Positions 5,570 to 39,408 of a DNA stretch of 39,408 nucleotides are shown in pieces. Source of the DNA: a virus; IMG/VR virus record IMGVR_UViG_3300035698_016456, positions 1 to 39,408 of that record; one strand, given 5' to 3'. Both the position numbers and the translations under genes were made by a program. Numbering within the stretch: position 1 is the stretch's first letter; each line of letters begins with the position of its first letter. The notes under the pieces are model-generated. The model was not told the DNA's origin and did no database searches. It saw only the letters and a list, made by a program, of their open reading frames with translations.

Positions 5570-6325
5570 ATGGCAAAGGCCAAAAAACCAGTTAAAAAGA
5601 AGACTACCGTCAAGAAAGATATTGACGACAGTTATCAATTTGCATTAGACGCACTTAAAGGTGTTGGTGACGATATCCGTATGGGCGATGAGGAATTGGC
5701 GGATCCGTCTATGAAAACCAGTCCAGCATGTAACTTCATGGAACTGAAAACCAAATGTGAATCCAAAACGAATGATTTTATTGATTATTTAGTTGAATTT
5801 TATTTAAGTAAAGACGTTCTAAAACTACCACACACACAATCCAAAATTGATGACGACAAAAATACATTGTCAAAACTATTATTCCAAATTGAAACGTCCG
5901 AACATGCTATAATGAGGTGTCTGGAGCGGATAGAAGTGTCACCTGAGGCGAGATTATTTGAAGTGTTGTCACAGTGCCAGCGAGCCCAAATGGATATAAT
6001 CAAACATTATGAGGCCGATAAAAAACTCATCGAAGATAATTATAAAATGATAAAAGAGACGTATGCAATTCAAAGATTAGAACTACCGGAACATACAGGT
6101 GAAATCAAACCCGTGAAAAAGAAGCGGGATATGAAAAGTATATTAAGGGACGTTCATAAATCCGTAGGTACGCTCGATGTCAAGGACCATAAAACGGGTG
6201 GTGGTGAGGATATTACAACCGATGTTGAAATTACCAATACAAAAAAACCTACAAAGAAACCAAAAAGAAAATCACAGAAAAAGGATCCTCCTCCATCCTG
6301 GCCGAAGGGAGTTAGACCAAAATAA
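5570..6325 (+). CDS. Probable small terminase subunit
   Basis: This 251-aa protein has a basic N-terminal tail (MAKAKKPVKKKTTVKKD), a central helical segment (about residues 60-180) that looks like a coiled coil or oligomerisation domain, and a very basic C-terminus (KKPTKKPKRKSQKK). It lies directly before the large terminase, and the stop and next start overlap as TAATG, which implies coupled translation. A TAGGAG ribosome site precedes the ATG. Position and domain plan match T4 gp16 (164 aa), which assembles as a ring and regulates packaging initiation. Sequence similarity alone did not identify it, so the assignment rests mainly on context. Confidence 0.55.
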   Translation: MAKAKKPVKKKTTVKKDIDDSYQFALDALKGVGDDIRMGDEELADPSMKTSPACNFMELKTKCESKTNDFIDYLVEFYLSKDVLKLPHTQSKIDDDKNTLSKLLFQIETSEHAIMRCLERIEVSPEARLFEVLSQCQRAQMDIIKHYEADKKLIEDNYKMIKETYAIQRLELPEHTGEIKPVKKKRDMKSILRDVHKSVGTLDVKDHKTGGGEDITTDVEITNTKKPTKKPKRKSQKKDPPPSWPKGVRPK

Positions 6326-6840
6326 TGGCAGTTTCAAGTAAACTCAAAGCAGAGAATATAATATGGTCAACTGAGAAGGTCAACCAGTATTTGAAAGCGA
6401 AGATGGGTAATGCCGAACAGACCTTACCAAGTCCATTTTTTGATGGGGATAAGGATGTTTTTCTTCGTAAGGGAAATCTGGAATTCGATCAGACGGATGA
6501 TGAATATGATGAGATGTGTAAATGTGCAACGGACATTGTATATTTTGCGGAGACGTATTGTCAAACCATGACCGATAACGGAATTATGATTGTAGAGTTA
6601 TATCCATACCAAAAAAGAATATTAAGGGACCTGAAGGAAAACCGTTACAATATTTGGCTTGCTGCGCGGCAGAGTGGAAAGTGTTATATTTACAATACTA
6701 AGGTTATTATATCAAATAACGGCAAAAGGGAAACCATACCATTCTTTGAATTGTATTATTCTATTGTAAAAAAACACAGGAAACTGACATTTTTTGAAAA
6801 AATAAAGATAAATTTGTATAAAATATATAATAAATTATAA
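6325..6840 (+). CDS. Large terminase, N-terminal part fused to N-intein
   Basis: Residues 1-119 are the N-terminal extein of the packaging ATPase-nuclease: a lead-in region, an adenine-binding type motif (ELYPYQKRIL, residues 91-100) and the first half of the P-loop, LAARQSGK, ending at Lys119. Residues 120-171 are the N-fragment of an intein, starting with Cys120. The frame stops at TAA (6838-6840), and the A begins the ATG of the next gene in another frame. Neither gene alone encodes a functional ATPase. Trans-splicing with the product of 6840-8717 would rebuild the P-loop ARQSGKTTT. The final protein would be about 598 aa, close to T4 gp17 (610 aa). Confidence 0.92.
   Translation: MAVSSKLKAENIIWSTEKVNQYLKAKMGNAEQTLPSPFFDGDKDVFLRKGNLEFDQTDDEYDEMCKCATDIVYFAETYCQTMTDNGIMIVELYPYQKRILRDLKENRYNIWLAARQSGKCYIYNTKVIISNNGKRETIPFFELYYSIVKKHRKLTFFEKIKINLYKIYNKL
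6682..6837 (+). other. N-fragment of split intein (52 aa)
   Basis: It starts with the splicing nucleophile Cys (TGT at 6682-6684) and the block A region CYIYNTKVIISNNGK. A basic tail follows (KKHRKLTFFEKIKINLYK). It ends before block B, so the break lies between blocks A and B. Most natural split inteins instead break near the endonuclease insertion point between blocks B and F. The AceL-TerL group of phage terminase inteins has a similarly short N-fragment (25 aa, from memory). Confidence 0.9.
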
Positions 6841-7277
6841 TGTTTAGATCTGTTTTAAAAAATATAATATTATGGATTATCCAAGCGATAGAGACCCATG
6901 AATATACATCACTATCTTTGGATCAAAACGACATTGATAAAAAGATTATGGAGTCATTTAATGCAACTGACATTAAAATTCTCACAGATAATGGATATGA
7001 ATCCATTACAGAGGTTCATAAGACTCAACCATACGACATTTGGGAAATAGAAACCCCCACGAAAAAATTAGAATGTGCCGATAAACATATTATATTTGAT
7101 GAATATATGAATGAAATATTTGTCAAGGATCTGTCAATTGGGGATGTTATTACCACAGAGGATGGAGTAGAACCTGTCATATCAATAACAAGGAAATCAC
7201 AAGCAGTTTCAATGTTCGATATATCCATAGATTCCCCAAATCATAGATACTATACAAATGGTATTTTATCCCATAAT
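6840..7277 (+). other. C-fragment of split intein (146 aa)
   Basis: It opens MFRSVLKN, an opening that, from memory, resembles the MFR start of the AceL-TerL C-intein. About 30 extra residues follow, with a hydrophobic and then an acidic stretch, before the conserved IKILTDNGYESITEV. Block B is LECADKH, with His83 kept but Ala in place of the usual Thr. Block F is MFDISIDSPNHRYYTNG, and the end is HN (His145, Asn146; 7272-7277). The next residue is Thr147, an allowed +1 nucleophile. No homing endonuclease domain is present. Confidence 0.9.
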
Positions 7278-8717
7278 ACAACCACGGCCGCATTTTTCAT
7301 GATGTGGTATTCTATGTTCCATGTTGAAAGAAATGCATTGATTGTTGCCAACAGGGCGGAGACGATGCAGGAGATTATAGATAAATGTGAAATTATTTAC
7401 AGGGAGTTACCATTTTTCTTGAAAGCTGGGATCCTGGTAAACAATAAACGACGTATGGAATTTGATAATGGATGTAGAATTATTGGTCAAGCAACCACCC
7501 CAAAACCTGCCCTTGGTTTTACCATACATTTATTATATGCGGATGAGTTTGCCCACATCCCAAAAAACATTATAGATCCATTTTATAGGTCGATGTATCC
7601 CACACTTTCAAGTTCTGAAATTTCTCGTATACTTATCACATCCACAGCAAACGGATTAAATAAGTTTGAAAAATTATATAAAGATGCTGTCCGTGGTTGG
7701 AATACATACCATGCAATTCGAGTGGATTGGTGGGAGGTTCCTGGTCGTGACGACGCATGGAAAGAAAGAGAAATTCGAAACTTTGGACAGGAATATTTCA
7801 ATCAAGAGTACGACAATCAGTTTTTATCAAACTCAAAAATACTATTAAACGGACCAGTTCTAAATTTCTGGAGGCGTATAGAGAAGCCTTTCGAATGGAG
7901 GGAGTGGGATGAATTTGAAAATTACAATATTGATTATGATGAGTTCATATGGCATCCAAATTTCATTGATTATGATTTGGAGGACGATTTTAGAAAATTT
8001 GTAATTTCAATTGACGTATCGGAGAGTATAGAATTGGATTATAATGTTGTCAATGTATTTGAAATTGAACCCCTATCACTTGCAAAGATCCGGACTCTGG
8101 ACAAATATAGAGACGAGACGGATTTCTTCCGGTTGAAACAAGTTGGTTTATATCGATCAAATAAGATACCAATTCCAGAACTTGCAAAGTTGATATCAGT
8201 ATTAATGTTCAAGATATTGGGTGTAGAAAACATTATCACTATAATTGAGATGAACCGTGCAGAAGGGCAACAGATCCACGAAATACTAAAAACGGCGGGT
8301 GATTATGATGATAACCTTATGCTACAAACATTACACACAGTAAATTCTATCAACAAAAAAGTTGGTGTGAAATTGACCAAGGTAAGTAAGCCACTTTTCT
8401 GTAAAACTTTCAAGAATATGGCAGCAACCGGAAAAATTATATTACAAGAGCCTGGATCCGTTTTGGAAGCAGTAGAATTTGGACAAAGTGGGGGAGGTAT
8501 ATTTGAAGGTCAGGGAGACAACGATGACATTATAATTACTGCAGTAAATTGTTCACCATTATTTGAAAGCGAAGAGTACGTAGAAATGGTTGGTGGCATG
8601 TATGATGAATTACCTTCGGCGCATTCGACGGCAATAGATGAGAGGTTGGATCAAGTACCGGACAATATGTTTGTAAGTGACGACATAGATTATTCTGTGG
8701 TAGGTGAATACTCATAG
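6840..8717 (+). CDS. C-intein fused to large terminase C-terminal part (ATPase and nuclease)
   Basis: Residues 1-146 are the C-fragment of the intein, ending SHN (Asn146). Residues 147-625 are the C-extein. It begins TTT, completing the P-loop, then has Walker B LLYADE (231-236), the coupling motif ITSTANG (266-272) and an RNase H-like nuclease with D392 (SIDVSE), E470 (IIEMN) and D562/D563 (DNDDIII). These match the T4 gp17 plan of ATPase followed by headful nuclease. The start overlaps the previous stop as TAATG, so both halves come from one mRNA by coupled translation. The protein acts at the prohead portal. Its activity should depend on trans-splicing, because the P-loop is divided between the two genes. 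Confidence 0.92.
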   Translation: MFRSVLKNIILWIIQAIETHEYTSLSLDQNDIDKKIMESFNATDIKILTDNGYESITEVHKTQPYDIWEIETPTKKLECADKHIIFDEYMNEIFVKDLSIGDVITTEDGVEPVISITRKSQAVSMFDISIDSPNHRYYTNGILSHNTTTAAFFMMWYSMFHVERNALIVANRAETMQEIIDKCEIIYRELPFFLKAGILVNNKRRMEFDNGCRIIGQATTPKPALGFTIHLLYADEFAHIPKNIIDPFYRSMYPTLSSSEISRILITSTANGLNKFEKLYKDAVRGWNTYHAIRVDWWEVPGRDDAWKEREIRNFGQEYFNQEYDNQFLSNSKILLNGPVLNFWRRIEKPFEWREWDEFENYNIDYDEFIWHPNFIDYDLEDDFRKFVISIDVSESIELDYNVVNVFEIEPLSLAKIRTLDKYRDETDFFRLKQVGLYRSNKIPIPELAKLISVLMFKILGVENIITIIEMNRAEGQQIHEILKTAGDYDDNLMLQTLHTVNSINKKVGVKLTKVSKPLFCKTFKNMAATGKIILQEPGSVLEAVEFGQSGGGIFEGQGDNDDIIITAVNCSPLFESEEYVEMVGGMYDELPSAHSTAIDERLDQVPDNMFVSDDIDYSVVGEYS

Positions 8718-13324: not shown

Positions 13325-15097
13325 ATGGAAATTATAAATGACATGGTTAAAAATTCAGAAAATCTTTTGGAATTTTTTAAAAAATATAAAATTTTAAAAA
13401 AGACAAATTCTGATGTTGAGGCATATATTATATCAAAAACTTCATTTTTAGAAGAAAGATATTCAAATATCCATATAAATCAAAGACTTGTCCATATTTA
13501 CAATAATTATTACGAGTTTTACGTTTGTGAATTTTGCGGGGAATTAGTTCATAAATATGTGAGTGTAGATTTAAAAAATAATGTTTATTATAATACAATT
13601 TGTAAAAATAAAAAATGTATAGTATTGAAACGTAAGGCCACCAATTTAAAAAAATATGGGGTTGAAAACGCCGCCCAATCTAACACCATTAAAGACAAAA
13701 TGAAGGCCACCAATTTAAAAAAATATGGGGTTGAAAACGCCGCCCAATCTAACACCATTAAAGACAAAATGAAGGCCACCAATTTAAAAAAATATGGGGT
13801 TGAAAATGTATCTCAATCGGAAGTTATAAAGAAAAGGAAGATATCCACATGCTTTATTAATTTCGGGGTTGATTATCCCATGCAATCGAAAGTTGTTCAG
13901 GAAAAATCGGAAGATACTTGTATGTCAGAATATGGAAAAAAATACACATTCCAGACGGATAATTTTAAAATGAAGGCGAGACAGACCTGGAAAGAAAATT
14001 ATGGTGTTGGGAATCCAAGCCAATCCGAAAAAATTAAAAATTTAGCTCAACAGACATACGCAAAGAATTTTATTGATAATTCATTTATTTTTATTGATCT
14101 GAAAAAGAGAAAATTTGAAATGATAAATTATATGAGGAGTGTATTTACGTTAAGATGTCCAAAATGTGATAAAATTTTCAATATCCATCATAAATTATTA
14201 TATAGTAGGTTGTATAATCACTGTGTAGAATTATGCGTCAATTGTAACCCTCTTGATTTACATATATCAGGACAAGAGATAAAATTAAATGAATTTATAA
14301 ATTCTCTTGGGGTTGAAACCGAACAATCCAACCGAACAATCCTTGGTAATAGGGAAATTGACATTTTTATACCCTCCATGAAAATTGGATTTGAATTTAA
14401 CGGAATTTATTGGCACTCGGATAAGTATAAATCTAAAGATTATCATCAGGAAAAGAAATTTCTTGCGGCAAAGAATAACATCAATTTAATTCACATTTGG
14501 AAGGATGACTGGAATTTTAAAAATGAAATTGTCAAAAGTAGGATTCGAGCTGTCCTTGGGATATCGAAACGTATCTATGGCCGTAAAACTGAAATAAGAG
14601 AGGTCTCCTCCGTTGTCTCCAGGGAGTTTTTAAATATAAATCATATACAAGGACATATAAATTCAAAACATCGTATAGGGCTGTTCTATGAGAGTAATTT
14701 AGTAGCATTAATGACCTTTGGTAAAAGAAATGTTCGAACCGAGATGTTAAGATATTGTAATCTATTAAATTATACTGTCATTGGAGGATTTTCAAAGCTG
14801 TTGAAATATTATATTCAAACATATTCACCGAAAGAAATATTTTCATATGCCGATTTGGACTGGAGTAACCCAAATAAAAATGTATATTTAACGACAGGAT
14901 TTAAATTTTGTGGAAACACTGTTCCAGGATATAGTTGGACAAAGTCCGGCATACGATATGGAAGACAACAATTCCAGAAACATAAATTGGTAAATGAAGG
15001 ATTTGACAGTAAAATGACAGAGAGTGAAATTATGCATGACCGAGGATACAATAAGATATATAACAGTGGTAACGGCAAATATTTATATGAAAAATAA
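13325..15097 (+). CDS. EDxHD (Vsr-like) homing endonuclease with repeat array
   Basis: This 590-aa free-standing endonuclease has a zinc-finger-like module (C68, C71, C93, C98), then an array of about 23-residue helical repeats (KKYGVENAAQSNTIKDK and variants, roughly residues 104-245). A second Cys-rich module (LRCPKCDKIF, CVELCVNC, about 275-312) follows, and then a Vsr-like nuclease. Its likely active site is Glu317 (GQEIKLNEF), Asp346 (REIDIF), Glu357 and His364/Asp366 (EFNGIYWHSD). This fits the EDxHD homing endonuclease family, first described together with split inteins in fractured phage genes. It lies downstream of the tube gene, where T4 has its portal gene. Its target site is unknown. 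A GAGG site precedes the ATG. Confidence 0.85.
   Translation: MEIINDMVKNSENLLEFFKKYKILKKTNSDVEAYIISKTSFLEERYSNIHINQRLVHIYNNYYEFYVCEFCGELVHKYVSVDLKNNVYYNTICKNKKCIVLKRKATNLKKYGVENAAQSNTIKDKMKATNLKKYGVENAAQSNTIKDKMKATNLKKYGVENVSQSEVIKKRKISTCFINFGVDYPMQSKVVQEKSEDTCMSEYGKKYTFQTDNFKMKARQTWKENYGVGNPSQSEKIKNLAQQTYAKNFIDNSFIFIDLKKRKFEMINYMRSVFTLRCPKCDKIFNIHHKLLYSRLYNHCVELCVNCNPLDLHISGQEIKLNEFINSLGVETEQSNRTILGNREIDIFIPSMKIGFEFNGIYWHSDKYKSKDYHQEKKFLAAKNNINLIHIWKDDWNFKNEIVKSRIRAVLGISKRIYGRKTEIREVSSVVSREFLNINHIQGHINSKHRIGLFYESNLVALMTFGKRNVRTEMLRYCNLLNYTVIGGFSKLLKYYIQTYSPKEIFSYADLDWSNPNKNVYLTTGFKFCGNTVPGYSWTKSGIRYGRQQFQKHKLVNEGFDSKMTESEIMHDRGYNKIYNSGNGKYLYEK
13634..13806 (+). repeat. Tandem 69-bp repeat inside the endonuclease gene
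   Basis: Two perfect 69-bp copies (13634-13702, 13703-13771) are followed by the first 35 bases of a third (13772-13806). Each encodes one 23-residue helical repeat. DNA-level identity means the duplication is recent. An assembly or copy-number artefact should be kept in mind. Confidence 0.92.
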
Positions 15098-19087: not shown

Positions 19088-22000
19088 ATGGCTAAAGAAC
19101 AGAAAAAGAAATCCCTTGGAACAGTTGATCCCGCAAAAGGAGAAAAAAAAGATAAATTACTAAGTTCGGTAAATTCCGTATTTGGTTCTATTGAAGATCA
19201 AATGGATTCCATGAATAAAGATTCAAAGAAACAATCTAAACTTTTCGCTGGAGTTGGGAAAATTCTCACTTCACTTCAGGATAAGCCTAAGATGGGTGGA
19301 TCAAAAAAATCCGGTTTGGATGGAGGTGGAGGTGTTAATAAAGCTCTTTCAAAATTAAATGAATCTATACTGGCACAGACAGCGATCCAGAGTGCTTTAC
19401 TCGCCACCATTGCTGGTGCGGGAAAGAAATTACCTAATGTTAAAACACTTGCAAAACAGGATCTGGCAAAACAGTCAACGAAACTTGGATCTATTATAAG
19501 TGGATTGAAAAATGCCAAGCCCGGGAAAATGGGAGGAGATGGGAGTAAGGAAAAAACTGGTATAATGGATAAGGCTAAAAACCTATTCAAGGGCAAGAAA
19601 AACGTTAAGTTAGATCCTGCAGGCATGGATCAGCTTCTTGGATTTATGAAAGAGTTTACAAAATTAAATATAAAAGATAACAAGAGTCCGATATTTGAAA
19701 TATTCACTCCAAAAAATACGGAAAATATAACTAATTTCGTCATAGCAACCAAAAAATTGGGTCGTGGCAAGATCAAAAAGGCGATGAAGAATTTCCGTTT
19801 GCTTGTAATTGGGGACAAGAAAAATGACGGAATAGGTAGAATATTAATAAACCTTACAAAAGAATTTGGGGAAAAAACTCAAGTAGAATCCACGGAAATA
19901 ATATCTCTTATATTAGGATCATTGGGTACAATCGCAACCGGAATAAAAGCCCTGGCTAAGGTTGGGCCGTTCTCGAAACTTGCAAAATTTACAATCCGGG
20001 GTTTCGTAGAAATTGCAGATCTTTTGAAAGATGCGTTCACCAAAGGATTATTTGGTGCAGAGACTGACAATGCAATAGCAAAGGTTGCCGAGTCGTTAAC
20101 ACTAATTGCCGGAACAGTTAAAAAACTGGCATTGGTTGCCATATTGACGCCAATTGCAGCAGTATCTGTTTTATTCATATATGGAACATTAAGATTATTT
20201 CAAAAGTTAGGCAAGGGATCAAATAGTAAAAAATTAAGAAAGGGAATAAATTCACTTTCAATGTTAGGTTTTGGCCTTATTGTATTTGTAGCTGCCGCTG
20301 TACTTTTCGCGGCCGTAATATTTAAGATAATAGTTCCTCTTACACTTGGAATTTTATTAATCTCTACAATAGGTGTTATTTTTGCATTGCTTGGAACACT
20401 TAGAAAGAAAATTAAAAAGGGAAGTAAGGCTTTAATTGCAATATCAGTTGGCCTCACGGCATTTGCGTTTGGGGCATTTGTTTTAACACTGGCTATGATG
20501 GTTTCCCCCTTACATTTATTTGCAGGAATTATAATTATTGGAATGGCCGGAGTGTTATTCACTATCCTCGGAGTTTTGAAAAAGCCTATTATCAAGGGTG
20601 CATTTGCCATGTTGGCTATGTCAATTGGACTCGTAATATTTTCTGTAGCGTTATACATAATGACTCTTGCAATGAAAAACGTAACCTGGGAAATGCTGGC
20701 AATGATGGGTGCTACAATAGTGGGTCTGGGACTGGCCGCGTATGTGATAGGAGAGAAATTTACTACAATTCTACTTGGTGCTATTGGTTTAGCCGCATTG
20801 GGTATCAATTTAATATTATTCTCTACTGGTTTATTAATATTATCAAAGGCATCAAAAGACTTAACCTGGGATAAATTGGCCATGCTTGGTGCAGTAATTA
20901 CGGGGTTAGGTATCGCTGCGGCTGTTATTGGTCAAAATATAAGTACAATTCTAATCGGTGCCGTTGGTTTAGCCGCATTAGGAGTCAATTTAATAATCTT
21001 CGCAACAGGAATGTTAATATTTTCGAAGGCATCAAAGAACTTAACCTGGGATAAGTTACTCATGCTTGGTGCAGTAATTACGGGGTTAGGCCTTGCCGCG
21101 GCAGTTCTTGGTATTCCCCCAGTATCCGGTTTTGTATTAATGGGCGCATTGGTTTTGACGGCACTTGCCGTACCACTAATTGCATTTGGTTTCGCAATTG
21201 GTTTATTTGGGGATTCTGCAGATAAATTAACGGAAAAAAATATAAAAATGACTGGTGAATTTATTTCCATGTTAGCATTTAATGTTCCAAAATTAGTATT
21301 GGCAACCGTTGGGCTACCTGCATTATTAGGAATATCTGCAGCATTACCACTATTAGCAAAAGGCTTACAGGAACTAAGTAAGGTTCCTGAGTGGACAGAG
21401 AAACAAAGTGAGAGCTTCACCTTCTTAATGGGAGCCCTTGTTAGTGGAATGTTAGAAACCGTTTGGCCTCCATGGCGTGCTGCAGGAGTATTGGCGTCGA
21501 TACCCCTTGTTATTGGAATGGGTAAAGCGTTACAAGAACTTTCAAAAGGATTAACAGAGGCTTCAAAATTTAAATGGGATGAATTTGAAATTGCGCCTGT
21601 TCAAACCGTTCTTGTAGGATTAGCGGAAGCATTTGCCTTGGTAGGACAATCCAGTGGAGAAGGTAAGGGGATGCTTGGTGGAATAACGAGCATGATTGGG
21701 ATATCCCCAAATAACGTTTTAATTGGTATCAAGTCTGTAAGTGGTGCAAGCAAGGCCCTCACGGAAGTTGGTAAGGGAGTCAAGGCATTCTTTGACATGA
21801 CCGATGGAATGCCAAAAGAATCATGGGCAGTTAATGATGATGGTAGTCCGGCAGAGGGTTCAGTTCCACAAAGAATTGCAACCGTTCTGGGAGTGATTGG
21901 AAAAGTCTTCGGGGACATTGGGGCATCTGGGAATACAAATGACAGTCTCATTGGCATGGTATTTGGTAGTGACATGAAAAAATCGGACACTGAAGTTGGA

Positions 22001-25000
22001 ATAGAATCAACTAAAAAAGTAGGCAAGACGTTAATATCCGTGACAGAAGGCGTCCAAGCATTTTACAATATGTCAAACGGTATGGGTGACGAAGCATGGG
22101 CAGTCAATGAAGACGATAGTCCTGCGGAGGGTTCAGTTCCACATAGAATTGCAACCGTCTTGGGAGTAATTGGTAAGGTATTTTCTGACATTGGTGCTTC
22201 TGGAAATACAAATAATAGCTACATGGGTATAATTTTTGGTAGTGACATGAAAAAATCAGATGTGGAAGTTGGTATAGAATCAACCAAAAAAGTAGGTAAA
22301 TCGTTAATTTCTGTAGCACAAGGCGTCAAAGTATTTTTCGACTTAACTAAGGATATGGGTAAAGAGGCATGGGCAGTTAATGGAGACGGCAGTCCAAAAG
22401 CAGATTCAATTCCCCACAGAATATCAACTGTTCTTGGAGTTGTAAATAAAGTATTTGCGGACATTGGAAAACAGGGTGACGATGGCAGTTTAATCAAGAT
22501 GGTATTTGGTAATGATTTCAGTCAAAACAGTGTCAAGGTGGGATCTGAAAGTGTTGAGATGGCCGGAACAGCCCTTACAAAAATTGGAAAATCTCTGGGT
22601 GAATTTTGGAAATTTACGGAGAGTTTGGGTTCCGGAGTATGGGACATTGACTCAGAAGGTAAATTTAAAGATGGAACGATACCCCACAGAATATCAACTG
22701 TTCTTGGAGCAGTTAATTCTGTATTCTCTGAAATTGGTAATAACAAGCCAAAAAGCGTATTAGGATTATTATCAACTGTATTCTTAGGGACTACCCTTAC
22801 AACGTCGGACACAGACAAGGGAATTGAGTCAGTCAAGAATGCAGGGAGTTCATTACTACAAATAACCAAAGGCCTTGGTGAATTTATAAAAATGACAGGG
22901 GAACTTGGACCTAACGCATTTAAATCAATAGGCACGGGAAAAAATGGAAGGTTATTATTTGCGGCCGACTCGATACCTGCTAAAATAATTAGCGTTCTTG
23001 GAGTCATCAATCAGGCATTTGGTGAGATTGGAAGAAATGCAAGTGTGGGACCAGGCGGAGCTGAAGGATTAATAGTGGACGTATTTGGATCGGCCACAAA
23101 CGACAATTTCGTAAAAAAAGGAATTGAATCTGTCAAGGGAATCGGTGAGGTATTCACAGGCATTGCTGGTGGGATGAAAGCATTTGCCAATGTAGAGAGT
23201 ATGCTTGGAGGAGCAACCATAGCACAACTTGGTAAAAATATAGGTTCAGTTTTAACCGTCATTTCCGGAGTCTTCCAGAAAATTGGTGAAGGTAGTGGTA
23301 GTGGTGGATTCTTCAGTGATGGAGACATACAAGCCGGAGTTGAAGCAGTTCAGGGTATTGGCAAGGTATTTGGTGAAATAGCAACTGGAATGAAAGAATT
23401 TGCCACTCTCCAACAAATGGGACTAAGCCCAGAGGATTTCAAAGTTGGTGGTGGTGGAATGGTTGACAACATAAAGAATATCATGATGGCAGTCACCGGA
23501 GTATTTGCTGACATTGGAAAACAAAATGGTGACATGGTAGAGGTAAAAGATTCCGAAGGGAAGCCTCATATGGTATCAAAGGGAGATGCGGCAAAAGGTG
23601 TCAAGTCAGTTGCGGGTTCAGGGAAGATTCTCAAAAACATTGCAGCGGGAGTGAAAGTATTCGCGGATTTATCAAAACCTGGTAAAGATGCAAACGGCAA
23701 TGTTCAGAAGCCAATAAGTATCGTCAAAATTGGCGAGAATATAACTGCAATATTACAAGTTGTAAATGTCGCATTTGCCAAGATTGGTTCAGGGGATGGT
23801 TCCGTAACAAGCCCCGAAGCCGTAGCGGCGGGTATCAAAGCAGTCAAGGGTAGTGGTGACATATTATCCAAGATTGCAGGATCATTGAAACCATTCATGG
23901 ATTTGGAAAAGGGAATTGAAACCACTGACAAAGACGGCAAGAAATCCACAAAGCCATTTGAACTCGAAAAGATCAAAAAGAACATGGCTGAGGTTATTGC
24001 ATTATCTTTCAATATAATGGCAGCAGTTGGAGACCAAGCTTTTGGAACAGAATATTTTGGAAAGTTAGGATTGAAAGTTTCCCCAAAAGGATATGACCCA
24101 ACCGTCATTGAAAATGCCAAACAGCTATTTGAAAAAGTTGGAGCATTAACCAAACCGATGAAGGATACTGCAGGATTATTAGCAGATTTAGACATTAAAG
24201 ATTTCGAAAATAAAAAGGTTATATATAGTAAGATTGCAGGATTACCGATGGCAGCAATATCGGTTATTTCGGGACAGTATAAGGATTTAGATAAGAATGT
24301 CATCACAAACATACTCAGTGATGGTGGTGTATTGGCACAGATGAATAAAAGAATTTGTGAAGTTGACACGACACTTAAAAGTTTAGAAAATAGAAAATTT
24401 GGAAAAAACGGCCCAATACAGTCATTAGCAGTTGATATGGGTGTTTGGGTAAATAAAATGGGGGTTGGTGTAACGGATAAAAAATTAGAGGCAACAACCA
24501 AGTTAGTAGACCTCCTTAAAACCTTAGCCGGAATTGCAGATCCGTTCACGGCGTTTCAAAAAAGTTTCAGTATATTCTCAGGCGATTTCAATAAATTGTT
24601 AGTTAATATTAAAAAGATGGATTTGAAAAAATTAGAGGGTGTCACGGCATTACAGAAGGAAAATATTAATTTGGCCCTTGCTCCTGCAGACGTGGCAGAA
24701 AGCAATATGAGGAATATAAAGGAATATATGGAAGTTGTATTAGCCATTTCACAAGAAGATGTAAAAACGTTAGAGGGTGTATTTGAAAAACTCACACAGG
24801 TCCAACAAAAAATGATCGATTCCACAGCAGCACAGGCTCAAGCGACACAGGCAACTGCTCAAGCGACACAGGCAACTGCTCAAGCAAACGTAGCTGCACA
24901 ACAAACATCCGCCTCGGGAGGAAACGATACATACAATACAGGAAATATGGAATCTGTTATGAATGATATTAGAAATGCTTTATCAAACCCAGAAGGTTTA

Positions 25001-25051
25001 TTGGTTCAAACGAAAACAAGAAGAGGGAGTGGAGATACAGGACTCGGATGA
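19088..25051 (+). CDS. Tail tape measure protein
   Basis: This 1987-aa protein sets tail length and is ejected at infection. The order is: a Lys/Gly-rich soluble N-terminus (1-250), a long hydrophobic stretch with many membrane-type helices (roughly 390-740) in which a 60-residue unit (NLTWDKLLMLGAVITGLG) recurs, nine diverged tandem repeats (about 880-1648), a helical region, and a Gln/Ala/Thr-rich tail with AQATQAT repeats. It is the longest gene in the window and follows the assembly genes, as expected. At roughly 1.5 Angstrom per residue it could span a tail near 300 nm, about three times T4; this assumes all of it acts as ruler. The leader has no ribosome site. T4 gp29 (590 aa) is the functional counterpart. 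Confidence 0.9.
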   Translation: MAKEQKKKSLGTVDPAKGEKKDKLLSSVNSVFGSIEDQMDSMNKDSKKQSKLFAGVGKILTSLQDKPKMGGSKKSGLDGGGGVNKALSKLNESILAQTAIQSALLATIAGAGKKLPNVKTLAKQDLAKQSTKLGSIISGLKNAKPGKMGGDGSKEKTGIMDKAKNLFKGKKNVKLDPAGMDQLLGFMKEFTKLNIKDNKSPIFEIFTPKNTENITNFVIATKKLGRGKIKKAMKNFRLLVIGDKKNDGIGRILINLTKEFGEKTQVESTEIISLILGSLGTIATGIKALAKVGPFSKLAKFTIRGFVEIADLLKDAFTKGLFGAETDNAIAKVAESLTLIAGTVKKLALVAILTPIAAVSVLFIYGTLRLFQKLGKGSNSKKLRKGINSLSMLGFGLIVFVAAAVLFAAVIFKIIVPLTLGILLISTIGVIFALLGTLRKKIKKGSKALIAISVGLTAFAFGAFVLTLAMMVSPLHLFAGIIIIGMAGVLFTILGVLKKPIIKGAFAMLAMSIGLVIFSVALYIMTLAMKNVTWEMLAMMGATIVGLGLAAYVIGEKFTTILLGAIGLAALGINLILFSTGLLILSKASKDLTWDKLAMLGAVITGLGIAAAVIGQNISTILIGAVGLAALGVNLIIFATGMLIFSKASKNLTWDKLLMLGAVITGLGLAAAVLGIPPVSGFVLMGALVLTALAVPLIAFGFAIGLFGDSADKLTEKNIKMTGEFISMLAFNVPKLVLATVGLPALLGISAALPLLAKGLQELSKVPEWTEKQSESFTFLMGALVSGMLETVWPPWRAAGVLASIPLVIGMGKALQELSKGLTEASKFKWDEFEIAPVQTVLVGLAEAFALVGQSSGEGKGMLGGITSMIGISPNNVLIGIKSVSGASKALTEVGKGVKAFFDMTDGMPKESWAVNDDGSPAEGSVPQRIATVLGVIGKVFGDIGASGNTNDSLIGMVFGSDMKKSDTEVGIESTKKVGKTLISVTEGVQAFYNMSNGMGDEAWAVNEDDSPAEGSVPHRIATVLGVIGKVFSDIGASGNTNNSYMGIIFGSDMKKSDVEVGIESTKKVGKSLISVAQGVKVFFDLTKDMGKEAWAVNGDGSPKADSIPHRISTVLGVVNKVFADIGKQGDDGSLIKMVFGNDFSQNSVKVGSESVEMAGTALTKIGKSLGEFWKFTESLGSGVWDIDSEGKFKDGTIPHRISTVLGAVNSVFSEIGNNKPKSVLGLLSTVFLGTTLTTSDTDKGIESVKNAGSSLLQITKGLGEFIKMTGELGPNAFKSIGTGKNGRLLFAADSIPAKIISVLGVINQAFGEIGRNASVGPGGAEGLIVDVFGSATNDNFVKKGIESVKGIGEVFTGIAGGMKAFANVESMLGGATIAQLGKNIGSVLTVISGVFQKIGEGSGSGGFFSDGDIQAGVEAVQGIGKVFGEIATGMKEFATLQQMGLSPEDFKVGGGGMVDNIKNIMMAVTGVFADIGKQNGDMVEVKDSEGKPHMVSKGDAAKGVKSVAGSGKILKNIAAGVKVFADLSKPGKDANGNVQKPISIVKIGENITAILQVVNVAFAKIGSGDGSVTSPEAVAAGIKAVKGSGDILSKIAGSLKPFMDLEKGIETTDKDGKKSTKPFELEKIKKNMAEVIALSFNIMAAVGDQAFGTEYFGKLGLKVSPKGYDPTVIENAKQLFEKVGALTKPMKDTAGLLADLDIKDFENKKVIYSKIAGLPMAAISVISGQYKDLDKNVITNILSDGGVLAQMNKRICEVDTTLKSLENRKFGKNGPIQSLAVDMGVWVNKMGVGVTDKKLEATTKLVDLLKTLAGIADPFTAFQKSFSIFSGDFNKLLVNIKKMDLKKLEGVTALQKENINLALAPADVAESNMRNIKEYMEVVLAISQEDVKTLEGVFEKLTQVQQKMIDSTAAQAQATQATAQATQATAQANVAAQQTSASGGNDTYNTGNMESVMNDIRNALSNPEGLLVQTKTRRGSGDTGLG
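20881..21090 (+). repeat. 180-bp spaced repeat in the hydrophobic part of the tape measure
   Basis: Thirty identical bases occur at 20881-20910 and 21061-21090, part of a 60-residue hydrophobic unit. A third, more diverged unit lies just upstream (near 20680-20740). The repeats encode membrane-type helices separated by a TWDKL or TWEML turn. Confidence 0.8.
21725..24030 (+). repeat. Nine tandem ruler repeats in the tape measure gene
   Basis: Each unit of about 70 to 105 residues begins with a G(I/V/S)(K/E)(S/A)(V/T) segment. It continues with a helix ending GVKAFF, GEFIKM or similar, then a TVLGVIGKVFSDIG-type helix. Units 1 and 2 are close at DNA level (period 273 bases; GGTAGTGACATGAAAAAATC at 21965 and 22238), while later ones are diverged. 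Growth by tandem duplication is evident. Confidence 0.85.
24836..24877 (+). repeat. 21-bp tandem repeat, tape measure C-terminus
   Basis: Two perfect copies of a 21-base unit beginning GCTCAAGCGACACAGG encode AQATQAT twice. A partial third copy follows. It makes a flexible linker-like Ala/Gln/Thr segment. Confidence 0.9.
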
Positions 25052-25613: not shown

Positions 25614-26231
25614 ATGTCTAAATCTATCCAACAACTTACAAACAAATATCTCGAGACTCGCAAGGACACTGATTTCACCAACCTATATAATAAACTATAT
25701 CCCGGCATCAAAAACTATATCTCAAAAATGTTCGCATCTGAGCGTGACGTATTTGTCGAGGATGTTGTATCTGTAACATTCCAAAAGATATATGAAAAAA
25801 TACACACATATAATCCCGTATACAGTTTATCTACATGGGCGTACCGAATTGCACGGAATGAAGCATTAACGGTACTACGGAAGGACAAACACGAAATTTC
25901 ACTAAGTTCATATACTGAGGACGAAGACAGTTTGGATCCAATGAGTTTGGAAGGAGTTTTGGACAAAGAGGCGTTGAAGTATTCCTTTGACATGGAGATT
26001 CAGGAAACCGCACTGGCAACCAAAATGTATTGTGACGAGGTACGAAAAAAGATCCGCCTGTTGAAACCACTATATAGAGATATAATTATCGACACAGACG
26101 AGAACAATTTCAGTTATAAGGACGTTGCCCTGAAATATGAATTACCAATCAATACTGTCAAATCACGAATACATACGGGCCGTATCAATGTTCGTAAAAT
26201 GATGAAGGGTATTTCAATAGACGATTTTTAA
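25614..26231 (+). CDS. ECF-like RNA polymerase sigma factor
   Basis: This 205-aa protein has the two ECF domains. Region 2 (about residues 20-92) contains DVVSVTFQKIYEKIHTYNP and STWAYRIARNEALTVLRK. Region 4 (about 145-198) contains YKDVALKYELPINTVKSRIH, a helix-turn-helix for the -35 element. The linker is acidic. It would redirect host RNA polymerase to phage promoters. It is therefore the natural candidate to read the ATATATAAGTTATAT-type motifs before virion genes, playing the part of T4 gp55, although that link is inferred. Direct promoter recognition by an ECF-type factor would differ from T4 clamp-coupled late transcription. AGAAAG is a weak ribosome site. Confidence 0.88.
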   Translation: MSKSIQQLTNKYLETRKDTDFTNLYNKLYPGIKNYISKMFASERDVFVEDVVSVTFQKIYEKIHTYNPVYSLSTWAYRIARNEALTVLRKDKHEISLSSYTEDEDSLDPMSLEGVLDKEALKYSFDMEIQETALATKMYCDEVRKKIRLLKPLYRDIIIDTDENNFSYKDVALKYELPINTVKSRIHTGRINVRKMMKGISIDDF

Positions 26232-26292
26232 AACAAAGTAGAGTTTTTTTTGTAACAATAAAAAGAGTATTTATAAAAAAAGGAGAATTATT

Positions 26293-26733
26293 ATGATTTC
26301 ATGCAGTAAGATATACAAAGATATCCCATTTGCCCACAGACAACCCCGTCATGACGGCCGTTGTGCTTATATTCACGGACACAATTGGGATTTTGAATTT
26401 GAATTTCGTTCAACAGAAATGGACGGAAATGGTTTTGTTATTGATTTCGGGAAACTGAAATTTATAAAAGAATATTTGGATAAATACGACCACGGATTGG
26501 TTGTAGAAGAAGGCGATCCGGAATTATACAGATGGAGAGAACTTCATGACCTCGGTTTTGCAAATGTTACAGTTGTGCCAGATGTATCGGCTGAAGGATT
26601 TGCCGTTCATTTACTTAATGAATTGAATCCACTGGTGTCGAAGGCTTCGGATGGCCGTGCTTGGATACATAGTGTTAAAGTATGGGAAGACAGTAAAGAT
26701 TCCGCACTATATATTCCGGAAGGAGTATCATGA
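26293..26733 (+). CDS. queD: 6-carboxy-5,6,7,8-tetrahydropterin synthase, QueD-like
   Basis: This is the second enzyme of the 7-deazaguanine pathway and converts dihydroneopterin triphosphate to carboxytetrahydropterin. The 146-aa protein shows the zinc ligands H15 (FAHRQ) and H28/H30 (IHGHNW), the catalytic Cys24 (GRCAYIHGH), GFVIDFGKLK, the YDHGL motif, and a C-terminal Glu (VWED). A strong AAAGGAG site precedes the ATG. It overlaps QueE by 4 bases (ATGA). Phages carry this gene to make a modified guanine for their own DNA; the DpdA-like gene downstream supports that here. Confidence 0.9.
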   Translation: MISCSKIYKDIPFAHRQPRHDGRCAYIHGHNWDFEFEFRSTEMDGNGFVIDFGKLKFIKEYLDKYDHGLVVEEGDPELYRWRELHDLGFANVTVVPDVSAEGFAVHLLNELNPLVSKASDGRAWIHSVKVWEDSKDSALYIPEGVS

Positions 26734-27338
26734 AGGATATAAGAGTGGTTGAAACATTTTACTCTCTTCAAGGAGAGGGTGGAATGGCTGGTCGTGCAAC
26801 GATATTTATTCGTTTGGGTGGCTGTAACAAAAAATGTTGGTTCTGTGATACAGAATTTAATAAGTACGAGACAATATCAATTGACGAAATATATAATAGA
26901 ATAAAAAAATATACTGGTCGATATATTGTGTGGACAGGTGGAGAACCCGCGTTACAATTAACAGAGGAGATTGTTGATTATTTCAAAAAACTTGGGTATA
27001 CTCAAGGAATTGAAACAAACGGATCACTTTCCGTACCAAAAAATCTTGATTACATTGCATGCGCACCTAAAGTAGAAGTGGATGTATTGAATCAGGCATT
27101 TGATGATTCATGTGTAATTGATGAGTTGAGATACCCGTTGGGAGTTGGTGAAGAACCACCAATGATATCCGAATTACCGGCATGTAAATCGTATTATATT
27201 TCACCATTGTTCTTAGGTGAGGAAAAAGAACGATTTGAATTGTCTCGTGAAAACCTGGAATATTGTGTTGAATATTGTAAAAATAACCCAGAATGGACTC
27301 TGTCTGTACAGCAACATAAATTGTGGGGGATTGCATAA
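26730..27338 (+). CDS. queE: 7-carboxy-7-deazaguanine synthase, QueE-like
   Basis: This radical SAM enzyme forms 7-carboxy-7-deazaguanine (CDG) from carboxytetrahydropterin. The CxxxCxxC motif is C32, C36, C39 (GGCNKKCWFCDTEF). SLQGEGGMAGRATIFIRLGG is the typical QueE opening, and VWTGGEPALQL is the SAM-binding GGE motif. At 202 aa it is the normal size. It is coupled to QueD upstream (ATGA) and to the phosphoribosyltransferase downstream (TAATG). QueC, which would make preQ0 from CDG, is not in this window. Confidence 0.93.
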   Translation: MKDIRVVETFYSLQGEGGMAGRATIFIRLGGCNKKCWFCDTEFNKYETISIDEIYNRIKKYTGRYIVWTGGEPALQLTEEIVDYFKKLGYTQGIETNGSLSVPKNLDYIACAPKVEVDVLNQAFDDSCVIDELRYPLGVGEEPPMISELPACKSYYISPLFLGEEKERFELSRENLEYCVEYCKNNPEWTLSVQQHKLWGIA

Positions 27339-27748
27339 TGGCTAAACATTTTATTTCTTGGAATGAATTGAAGCTTAAAGTTTCCAGATTTGACCAGAGT
27401 AAAAAATATTATGGCATCCCACGCGGGGGTGCTGTAATTGCTGGAATGACAGATAATCCAGTAGAGACACCAGAAGAGGCTGACATTATTATTGACGATT
27501 TAATAGACTCAGGTGAAACGGCAAGAAAATGGAAAGAAAAATATCCAAACAAAGAGTTCATATTCTTGTATAATAAACAAGAAGAACACCAGAATATGTG
27601 GTTGGTATTCCCTTACGAAGAAGAGGGAGTGAAAGATATCGAGGACTGTATTATTAGAGTCTTAGAATTTGCCGGTCAAACGGTTGTGGATATAGATAAA
27701 ATAATTGTTTCAAAAAGTGGCAAGGGAGCAACAATAAATGTTGAATAA
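27338..27748 (+). CDS. Phosphoribosyltransferase-fold protein in the deazaguanine cassette
   Basis: This 136-aa type I phosphoribosyltransferase has the strand-loop YGIPRGGAVIAG (about residues 25-36), the PRPP-binding loop ADIIIDDLIDSGET (48-61) with the Asp-Asp pair, and the hood-type WLVFPYEEE near residue 88. I chose the ATG at 27338, which overlaps the QueE stop as TAATG. A GTG 15 bases upstream is open but less likely. The FolE gene overlaps its end by 11 bases. Its place in the middle of the cassette suggests it acts on a purine or deazapurine base or recycles the guanine displaced by DpdA. The substrate is not known. Confidence 0.8.
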   Translation: MAKHFISWNELKLKVSRFDQSKKYYGIPRGGAVIAGMTDNPVETPEEADIIIDDLIDSGETARKWKEKYPNKEFIFLYNKQEEHQNMWLVFPYEEEGVKDIEDCIIRVLEFAGQTVVDIDKIIVSKSGKGATINVE

Positions 27749-28403
27749 GACGAAGACTGATCCAAAATTAGGTAGTGAGGTAAATGAATATCTGGAAAAA
27801 ATGGGTGTACAAACACCAATGAAAAGAAATTCATATAGTAATATAGAGAAACAGGAATTTATTAAAAAACATTTCTCGGCTATAATGTCAATTCTCGGAC
27901 TTGATTTGGAAGATGACAGTTTGGCAGAGACACCCAAAAGAATCTCAAATATGTTTGTAAATGAAATATTTTGGGGTATGGATCCCGACAATTTCCCCAA
28001 GGCCACAACCGTTCAGAACAAATTTGAATATGACGAAATGGTTATTGAGAGAGATATAAATGTTCAGAGTAACTGTGAGCATCATTTTGTTGTAATCGCA
28101 GGCAGTGCAAACATTGGATATATTCCAAATAAAAAAGTTCTTGGCCTCAGTAAATTAAACCGAATAGTTGAATATTTCAGTAAAAGACCACAGATTCAGG
28201 AGCGCCTGGTGGAACAGATATATCACGCATTGGTTTACATTTTAGATACAGAAGACGTTGCCGTAGTTATAAACGCGAAGCATTTTTGTGTCAGTTCACG
28301 AGGTGTAGAGGATGTCAATTCAAAAACCATCACATCAAAAATGGGTGGCAGATTTAAATCTGACCAAATGGCAAGAACTGAGTTTATAAACTTCACAAGT
28401 TAA
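27738..28403 (+). CDS. folE: GTP cyclohydrolase I, FolE
   Basis: This first enzyme of the pathway converts GTP to dihydroneopterin triphosphate, the QueD substrate. The 221-aa protein has the zinc ligands C113 (SNCEHHF), H116 and C184 (KHFCVSSRGVED), the ETPKRI motif near residue 64, and the conserved GYIPNKKVLGLSKLNRIVEY. The length fits bacterial FolE. Together with QueD and QueE it supplies CDG without relying on the host. It starts inside the end of the phosphoribosyltransferase gene. Confidence 0.95.
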   Translation: MLNKTKTDPKLGSEVNEYLEKMGVQTPMKRNSYSNIEKQEFIKKHFSAIMSILGLDLEDDSLAETPKRISNMFVNEIFWGMDPDNFPKATTVQNKFEYDEMVIERDINVQSNCEHHFVVIAGSANIGYIPNKKVLGLSKLNRIVEYFSKRPQIQERLVEQIYHALVYILDTEDVAVVINAKHFCVSSRGVEDVNSKTITSKMGGRFKSDQMARTEFINFTS

Positions 28404-28426
28404 GATATTTTAATTAGGAGACAATT

Positions 28427-29365
28427 TTGAGAATAGTATTAAGTGATGTCGCGTGGACACCCGCGATGTTTGAGGAGATGACAAAAATGAACATTGTACT
28501 TGCCAGCGGCATGCAAACGGAAGAGGAACGATTGGCACTATTCAAAGGTGTCAATGGAGAAGGATTAATCAAAAAAGAGGAACATCTTAATGTCCTTTTC
28601 TCGTTCTTTTATGCAAGGGGTGGATATGCAACCAAAGGAAACCAAATCCTTCAGGACATAAAAGCCGCCAAGTTGAAAGGCAAAATGTATTTGGATTCAG
28701 GAGTGTTCTCTGCAAGAAAAAAGGGTATGATAATTCCCACTGAGGAATTGATCGACTTTTATTTTGAACATGAAGACACAATTGACCACGTATTTTCAAT
28801 GGATGATGGTCCAATTGAAACACAGTTGAAAAACGCAAAACAAATGAAAGATGCCGGCCTTCCGGTAATCGGAATTTTCCATCCGGGAACAATGCCCCTC
28901 GACTACTTAGATAAACTCAATGAGATATGTGATTACGTTTCAATTGGTATGTTCTCTGTTGGTGGATTTATGAAGAAGGATAGTATTATAAATACATTGG
29001 ACAAGGTATGGGAATATATTTACCATAGAGATTTGATGCCAATGAAAATACATTTACTGGGAACAGAGAATACAGATGTATTAATACGATATCCATTTTA
29101 TTCGAGTGATGCAAGTTCATTTTTCCTTGGATACGCAAACGGGGCATATTCATATTTCAATAAAATGAACCAGAGAATAAAAATGATCAACTTGAGAAAG
29201 AACCTTACAGACGCAGCAACTCTGGATATAAATGCAGTGGACTTAAAAGGTGACAGTATAGAACATAGAGTCCTTCGGGCATCAAATTCTATCCGTGCAA
29301 GATTTGACCTTCAACGATTTGTTACAGATGTTTGGACGAAGAAAGGTGTGGTATGGGAGGATTAA
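28427..29365 (+). CDS. dpdA: DpdA-like tRNA-guanine transglycosylase homologue (DNA base exchange)
   Basis: This 312-aa TGT-fold enzyme is expected to exchange guanine in phage DNA for a 7-deazaguanine. Motifs include MYLDSGVFSARKKG (D90, S91), VFSMDDGPIE (D126/D127), a YVSIGMFSVGGF loop and MKIHLLGTENTD, which matches the HLLG strand of TGT enzymes. It is shorter than bacterial tRNA TGT (about 375 aa) and close to the phage DpdA type. The start is a TTG at 28427 with ATTAGGAG at good spacing; no ATG fits. It directly follows FolE in the cassette, which favours DNA modification over tRNA queuosine. Confidence 0.85.
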   Translation: MRIVLSDVAWTPAMFEEMTKMNIVLASGMQTEEERLALFKGVNGEGLIKKEEHLNVLFSFFYARGGYATKGNQILQDIKAAKLKGKMYLDSGVFSARKKGMIIPTEELIDFYFEHEDTIDHVFSMDDGPIETQLKNAKQMKDAGLPVIGIFHPGTMPLDYLDKLNEICDYVSIGMFSVGGFMKKDSIINTLDKVWEYIYHRDLMPMKIHLLGTENTDVLIRYPFYSSDASSFFLGYANGAYSYFNKMNQRIKMINLRKNLTDAATLDINAVDLKGDSIEHRVLRASNSIRARFDLQRFVTDVWTKKGVVWED

Positions 29366-38401: not shown

Positions 38402-39408
38402 ATGAATATACGAAATGAGATGAAAGATTGGTTTGATACACACTCCAAAAGAGCAAACCATGCATTATTTAAAAAAATAAAGACAGATCCAGATAATTGG
38501 AATGTCGTTTTAACGGAAACTGAATTTTTACCGGTAGACTCCCCTGACCAAAGAAGATTGTGGCATTATTATAATGGTGTGTTTGAAATCCCCAAATGTG
38601 CTATATGTGGAAAGGAATTAAGATATGTTAATTTTTCTGGGTCATATTTCCAAACTTGTTCAAAAAAATGTGCCACCACAAAAAAATGGCAAGATGGTAA
38701 GATGGATGATTGCCGTGACAAGCGAACTGAATCATTCAAATCTAAATGGGGTGTTGGTGCTGCCGGCCATGAGGATTTATTGGAAAAACGTAGGGAAACT
38801 TCGTTACAACGATATGGAGCAACTCATCACATGAAATCACAAGCAGGGTATTCCAAATATAGATCTATTATTGAAGAAAAATATGGCGTAAATAACGTTG
38901 CTAAAGTTCCTGCTGTTATTGAAAAAATTAAAGATACTTGGGATTCAAAATCAGATGAAGAAATAGACTACATAAATAAAAAACGACACCAAAATTCTGT
39001 GAATGGAGTTCGTGAAAAATATGGTGTGGATAATGTATTTCAATTGACATCAATACAGGAAAAAATTACAGAAACCATGATCTCACGATACGGAGTCAAA
39101 AAACCTCTTGAGTTGGAAGAATTTAGAATGAAGCAGAAAGCTACGATGAAAGATCGATTTGGTTGTGATAATTCTTCGTCTGTTCCTGAATTGAAAGATA
39201 AAAAGAAACAGACCATGGTTGATACAAAACGATGGATTGCTGATGAAGATTTAACAGAATGGGTTTTATATAAAAAAGATGTTACCCGGCGAACTCGAAA
39301 GACATTACTTGAGTTTGGAGATAAGAAGTTTGGAAATGATTGGAGAGACAAGATTGGAAAAATGGGTGTGGATGAGGGGATGCAAATTGACCACATATTT
39401 TCCATTAA
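38402..39408 (+). CDS. HNH-type homing endonuclease-like protein, partial (C-terminus outside window)
   Basis: The frame is open from the ATG at 38402 to the window edge (335 residues, no stop). A four-Cys zinc module (C66, C69, C86, C90) is followed by an array of YG-centred helical repeats (EEKYGVNNVAKVPAVIEK, REKYGVDNVFQLTSIQEK, SRYGVKKPLELEEFRMKQK). These are the same kind as in the endonuclease at 13325. The last residues, GMQIDHIFSI, look like the first strand and catalytic DH of an HNH nuclease. It stands downstream of the capsid gene, a common target region for free-standing homing endonucleases. No good ribosome site is visible. Confidence 0.75.
   Translation, partial: MNIRNEMKDWFDTHSKRANHALFKKIKTDPDNWNVVLTETEFLPVDSPDQRRLWHYYNGVFEIPKCAICGKELRYVNFSGSYFQTCSKKCATTKKWQDGKMDDCRDKRTESFKSKWGVGAAGHEDLLEKRRETSLQRYGATHHMKSQAGYSKYRSIIEEKYGVNNVAKVPAVIEKIKDTWDSKSDEEIDYINKKRHQNSVNGVREKYGVDNVFQLTSIQEKITETMISRYGVKKPLELEEFRMKQKATMKDRFGCDNSSSVPELKDKKKQTMVDTKRWIADEDLTEWVLYKKDVTRRTRKTLLEFGDKKFGNDWRDKIGKMGVDEGMQIDHIFSI

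Follow-up and report, generated by a model that had tools for sequence, protein, structure and literature searches.

A T4-type phage terminase divided between two overlapping genes by a predicted split intein, a probable end stage of gene fracture by a homing endonuclease

The stretch of DNA analyzed here (the window) is the 39,408-base IMG/VR fragment IMGVR_UViG_3300035698_016456, a partial genome of a phage. Its large terminase is encoded by two genes, which also carry the two halves of a putative naturally split intein. The features of the locus are the following:

6325..6681, plus strand: N-extein of the large terminase, 119 residues, ending in LAARQSGK, the first part of Walker A (terminase PHROG match, 4.4e-20)
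6682..6837, plus strand: N-intein, 52 residues, with Cys1, block A and then the lysine-rich KKHRKLTFFEKIKINLYKIYNKL (the 'N-tail'), common to most relatives (from sequence and alignment with relatives)
6838..6842, plus strand: gene junction TAATG, where the N-gene stop and the C-gene start share one base (from the reading frames)
6840..7277, plus strand: C-intein, 146 residues, with the start segment MFRSVLKNIILWIIQAIETHEYTSLSLDQNDIDKK (the 'C-head'), block B (ECADKH), block F and a terminal SHN (intein matches; Pfam Intein_splicing 0.0039, under the curated cut-off)
7278..8714, plus strand: C-extein of the large terminase, 479 residues, starting with TTT, whose Thr+1 completes Walker A (GK/T, the slash marking the break; Pfam Terminase_6N 2e-11, PHROGs)

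The N gene (6325-6840) and the C gene (6840-8717) lie in different frames (-1), the stop TAA at 6838-6840 overlapping the ATG at 6840, and extra stops flank the junction on both sides. Coordinates, lengths and motifs agree with the first-pass annotation, which had described a terminase in two genes, one ending in the P-loop LAARQSGK and the next opening its extein with TTT, with a Cys-starting block A fragment of 52 residues and a 146-residue fragment containing blocks B and F and a terminal HN between them. Its estimate of about 598 residues for both exteins together also holds (119 + 479 = 598), and every terminase motif is present. The C half belongs to a T4-type large terminase (PHROG 'terminase large subunit', 8e-31): besides the Terminase_6N ATPase and the divided Walker A, it has an intact Walker B (ADEF) and a motif III-like STANG, as well as a nuclease domain in which IDVSE, IIEMNR and GDNDD are presumably the acidic residues, by motif only and from comparison with T4 gp17. 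The split gene is the only readable terminase in the window. Because Walker A is divided between two products, an active ATPase should need their ligation; judged from its sequence, the packaging terminase should require protein trans-splicing.

An interruption of terL may also be removed at the RNA level, as in ICP1, whose terL has an intron spliced from RNA (PMC10448857). For the window this is exceedingly improbable, since the window and seven relatives give zero Rfam matches, no DNA lies between the window's reading frames, and both flanks of the junction are conserved protein sequence with intein motifs.

The C-intein ends in ILSHN, and its block B is a variant of TxxH. Cys1, Thr+1, the ADKH of block B and the terminal SHN are the residues of a class 1 intein. 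Among solved inteins the C-intein matches VidaL (1.2e-8) and Cat (1.3e-5), and profile matches include gp41-1 and others. VidaL (PDB 6vgv) is the nearest solved intein by sequence (4e-11) as well as by fold; this match, of ~22% identity, covers the core of the C-intein only (profile positions 44-147) and leaves the C-head unmatched. Evidence on the fold comes from an AlphaFold model of L045 (L-numbers denote loci of the survey described below), a relative whose intein is contiguous. Of two AlphaFold runs only the first was usable, for the C part only, which has a predicted local distance difference test score (pLDDT) of ~90. The model has a Hint fold, and its listed PDB matches are inteins or intein-like domains (E 1e-7 to 1e-4), with VidaL, Cat, gp41-1 and further inteins on top. 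Of the two fragments for which the first-pass annotation had proposed a profile search, the C-intein matches solved inteins, and the N-intein profile gives zero matches in the PDB. It should be noted that the N-fragment alignment is too variable to serve as a search query, and that MAFFT misaligned mixed sets of N and C fragments. The two halves lie on two separate genes, in a single record of the junction. The sequence, the Hint-fold model and dozens of relatives split at the same site support the predicted naturally split class 1 intein inside the terminase P-loop, with its break between blocks A and B, that had been claimed at the outset.

Two successive profile scans of IMG/VR yielded 39 and 144 loci, respectively, 80 of the latter being kept. 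The tally is 86 IMG/VR loci plus the window, or 66 non-redundant members once LR756501 is added, nearly all of them split at the same place. Cys1 is found in 54/54 non-redundant members, as is GK directly before it, and block B reads [AG]DxH in 66/66; position +1 is occupied by Thr in 63 members and by Ser in 3, the penultimate residue of the C-intein is His in 61/66 and the final one Asn in 65/66. The N-intein fragment is 42-73 residues long in 49 members. Because the same layout and motifs recur in 66 non-redundant loci, the two-gene arrangement is beyond chance. In the relatives, the exteins are under purifying selection, and the ratio of nonsynonymous to synonymous substitution rates (dN/dS) of the intein parts is mostly < 0.5 in close pairs.

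These counts also bear on whether the halves might assemble non-covalently without splicing, like ribonucleotide reductase in pieces. A phage gene that works in pieces without ligation is known (mentioned in PMC10448857), and the penultimate His is replaced by Leu in 3 non-redundant relatives and by Ser in 2, while the final residue is Gln in one. Without splicing, however, the splicing residues would be expected to drift, and they are almost invariant in the 66 members; moreover, Walker A would still be divided, with ~200 intein residues inside the ATP site. We regard non-covalent assembly as highly improbable.

In most relatives the two intein halves are separated by a freestanding, Vsr-like homing endonuclease gene. 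An extein tree of 67 rows has 35 split tips in which such a gene is present and 11 split tips with no intact copy. A further 11 tips have an unseen N half (mostly at contig ends), and 5 are single open reading frames (ORFs). Of the 46 split tips with both halves seen, 35 thus have the endonuclease gene. The inserted endonuclease is ~300-420 residues long with a zinc-finger-like start, and matches PD-(D/E)XK families weakly but consistently (MTES_1575 2.5e-5; DUF559 5.6e-4); its profile finds nothing significant in the PDB. In L089, L091, L126 and L128 an endonuclease gene lies on the opposite strand, and L104 and L122 carry a different, ~560-residue kind, related to the freestanding window gene at 13325-15094 (38% to L122, 3e-88). 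Since the endonucleases differ in strand and kind among relatives, different endonucleases have used the same spot.

At the junction of every readable split without an intact endonuclease gene, other than the window, an endonuclease fossil is found (L019, whose reading contains internal TGA codons, is not counted here). The stronger ones are in L013 (1.6e-42), L023 (1e-33) and L117 (4e-14, in front of the C-head), and truncated remnants remain in L020 and L115. Further fossils are found in L042 (6e-8, with an in-frame stop), L094 (4e-8), L105 (3e-6) and L043 (3e-4), as well as in L116/L119/L120 (1.5e-6, fused to the N-tail), and weak matches in L121 (0.007) and L092 (0.013). Changes between presence and absence of the endonuclease among split forms number at least 9 on the extein tree. 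Splits with overlapping genes are found in L116/L119/L120 (three records with one shared 8-nucleotide overlap), L117 and L121, having arisen repeatedly and independently. As in LR756501, the halves are far apart in L048, where ~11 kb separate the C gene from the end of the N gene.

Contiguous, single-gene forms are found in L045, L095, L102, L113 and L129. L038, which is split and has the endonuclease gene, is 94-97% identical to the contiguous L045 over aligned blocks, and 71 nucleotides of L045 are replaced in L038 by a 1.2-kb block that holds the N-tail, the endonuclease and the C-head. The contiguous L113 can be matched to L038 on either side of the insert, with an identity (two sides, cumulative) of 98/96% over the first 50 nucleotides, 94/88% over 100, 83/81% over 300 and 77/78% over 450. 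Such a gradient would be the expected outcome of an endonuclease moving by break repair with co-conversion of its flanks. L021 and L028 have nearly identical exteins and clearly different inteins, a contrast that we read as another intein replacement. Homing makes the extein tree a poor guide to whether the contiguous forms are ancestral or re-fused.

A few members of the family are unusual in other respects. LR745206 (L009) has a terminase nested among the split ones and no intein at the GK/T site (RQVGKT), possibly an empty intein site. The N half of L019 (IMGVR_UViG_3300001598_000154) reads through three TGA codons and its C ORF stops early; this is either a recoded phage or a decayed gene. 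The terminase C gene reaches ~1,120 codons, far above relatives, in L028 (5968-9339), L047 (5995-9411) and L110 (5911-9279), and may hold a second intein or an insertion in the C-extein.

In split members, the N half ends and the C half begins with segments whose sequence is also present in every contiguous member. This N-tail and C-head sequence is under constraint in most close pairs, and AlphaFold models it, at limited confidence, as one helical run or as two. We hypothesize that the two segments probably help the halves to associate.

In the 'fractured genes' reportedly described by Dassa et al. in 2009, a split intein interrupts a conserved phage gene, and its two halves have a freestanding, Vsr-like endonuclease gene between them. 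Most relatives here are alike in having both the split intein and the Vsr-like endonuclease gene between its halves; the window, which has no such gene there, would be at most a derived member. Here, the interrupted gene is the terminase, at GK/T, and the intein is divided between its blocks A and B; the relatives further differ in endonuclease loss with the split kept, in their contiguous counterparts and in the conversion gradient. We consider it quite probable that the window shows such a fracture in its final stage, in which the endonuclease that split the gene has been lost, the split has been kept and trans-splicing restores the terminase. A freestanding homing endonuclease gene would have inserted itself into a contiguous intein, splitting it between blocks A and B, and would later have been lost with the halves left unjoined. 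The break, falling in a mostly helical linker, would have left each half with one side of it, as N-tail and C-head. When the two precursors meet, the intein halves would fold into one Hint domain, and Cys1, Thr+1 and the final Asn would perform trans-splicing, yielding a 598-residue terminase with a complete Walker A. Endonuclease invasion, endonuclease loss and retention of the split make the most economical history for the window. The homing-endonuclease origin was missed in the first-pass annotation, and the window alone cannot show it. A wider proposal, to which we give slightly less than an even chance, extends this to a whole group of large T4-like phages, whose essential packaging motor would be a product of trans-splicing. 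The cause would be an endonuclease cassette, equipped with its own pair of re-associating intein ends (the N-tail and the C-head), that moves from one terminase gene to another by homing, interrupts the intein while the gene survives, and then decays to leave half-genes that overlap or even lie far apart.

Several points weigh against this history. The window junction has no intact endonuclease gene and, by tblastn, no fossil, so that endonuclease loss in its own lineage is inferred; trans-splicing in the window is likewise inferred from sequence. The window sits on a long branch of the extein tree, and the N-tail and C-head helices are of low to middling confidence and are packed differently in two models. 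The window covers 39 kb only, and a second terminase may lie elsewhere in the genome. Finally, the junction is known from one record, a one-base length error in a short AT-rich stretch would create it, and contiguous relatives exist. The bases after the window junction (frame CLDLF) were considered as an endonuclease fossil and rejected: a genuine C-gene start in L012 (MFR) shares them, and tblastn shows no endonuclease similarity.

The single record raises the alternative that a length error in assembly or sequencing produced the break and that the true gene is one ORF with a contiguous mini-intein, like L045 or L113. The earlier suggestion that a base change at the stop 6838-6840 could join the frames does not hold: as the genes differ by a -1 frame, loss of the stop by substitution would leave them apart, and only a change in length would join them. 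There is no second record of the junction: an initial IMG/VR search with the window's own C protein gave no close relative, and a genome collection likewise gave none. Against a length error, the split lies at this very site in most relatives, the C gene begins at the Met used as a start in relatives, overlapping-gene splits are independent in L116/L119/L120, L117 and L121, and two further junctions between genes in the window (6325 and 30111) likewise have an overlap of one base. Because the window shares its place of break, start Met and tail with the relatives, and overlapping-gene splits recur, the sequence indicates with high probability that the split is real, and a length error is unlikely.

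Two huge phages belong to the family. In LR756500 (462 kb) a 366-residue gene lies between the terminase halves; in LR756501 (735 kb) the halves are 12.4 kb apart, with intervening genes in both orientations. The word 'intein' is absent from the huge-phage paper. These genomes bear on the possibility that the split terminase is a relic and that another, intact terminase packages the DNA, which the fragmentary state of the window would allow and for which LR756501 offers a second terminase-like ATPase gene. That gene, however, is only 390 residues long, and its Walker A no longer has the Lys (RQMGIT). A single Terminase_6N match, namely the split gene, is found in LR756500 and in each of six IMG/VR records (the latter possibly incomplete). 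With the exteins under purifying selection in relatives and the terminase motifs of the window intact, a relic is very unlikely. As proof of function, LR756501 is weakened by its LN intein end and by the second terminase-like gene, even though the latter lacks the Walker A Lys. Unusual intein ends, in place of His-Asn, are Ser-Gln in LR756500 (L006, L050) and Leu-Asn in LR756501, L048 and L049. Both huge phages have a second terminase-ATPase-like ORF (L083:555-1727, RQMGIT; L006:4937-5749, RQMGIS), with no intein and too short for a nuclease half.

Among known systems, AceL-TerL and GOS-TerL have, as listed in PMC11766414, N/C fragments of 25/104 and 37/115 residues and a Cys at +1. The window is like them in being a split phage large terminase with a class 1 intein, in its short N and long C fragments, and in the position of its break, which leaves block A on the N gene and blocks B, F and G on the C gene. 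Its N fragment exceeds the ~15-37 residues of that type, as do those of the family, its Thr+1 suggests an insertion site other than that of the Cys+1 inteins, and the N-tail and C-head are not known to be described for AceL-TerL and GOS-TerL. Of the 'AceL-TerL type' break assigned at first, the split position stands, but the N length (52 vs. 25), the +1 residue (Thr vs. Cys) and the extra segments flanking the break set the window apart. The Ackermannviridae phages Kuja, VAP7 and MK-13 have contiguous terminase inteins of 159-179 residues at the same GK/T, and Campylobacter phage CP220 has a contiguous 145-residue terminase intein near the ATP site; unlike the window, these are single ORFs without N-tail and C-head sequence. 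In MIJ3, a PolB intein is split, and an HNH endonuclease lies between its halves (PMC6892783). What it has in common with the present family is an essential gene of a jumbo phage that is interrupted by an intein harbouring an endonuclease gene; the gene (DNA polymerase), the endonuclease (HNH) and the intein are different. The general kind is thus already known from fractured genes and the atypical split TerL inteins (AceL, GOS). A literature search, limited to part of the published papers, found split terminases of this family undescribed.

Arguments on the origin of natural split inteins rest mostly on a small number of end products. In the present family, a single gene brings the stages together: contiguous intein, break with an intact endonuclease, decaying endonuclease, overlapping genes without endonuclease, and halves kilobases apart. 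If the spread and decay of an endonuclease cassette is true, this would be an observed route from a mobile endonuclease to a natural split intein with every stage extant, and the contiguous/split pair and the conversion gradient make the homing step testable. The family would also be a large source of new split inteins for protein engineering, with Thr+1 and N fragments of middle length. Such phages should need trans-splicing for packaging, so that their terminases would be missed or truncated by gene callers and in terminase-based trees.

The other T4-type genes of the window encode a neck protein, sheath, tube, prohead protease and gp23-type capsid protein. Two more homing-endonuclease-like genes lie at 13325-15094 and 38402-39406 (phrog_3339, DUF7487). 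A 1,987-residue ORF at 19088-25051, with zero PHROG matches at E 0.01, is perhaps a tail or tape-measure protein, from its size and location. At 25614-29365, a sigma-factor-like gene is followed by QueD-like, QueE-like and queuine tRNA-ribosyltransferase-like genes, whose similarities suggest deazaguanine modification of DNA or tRNA.
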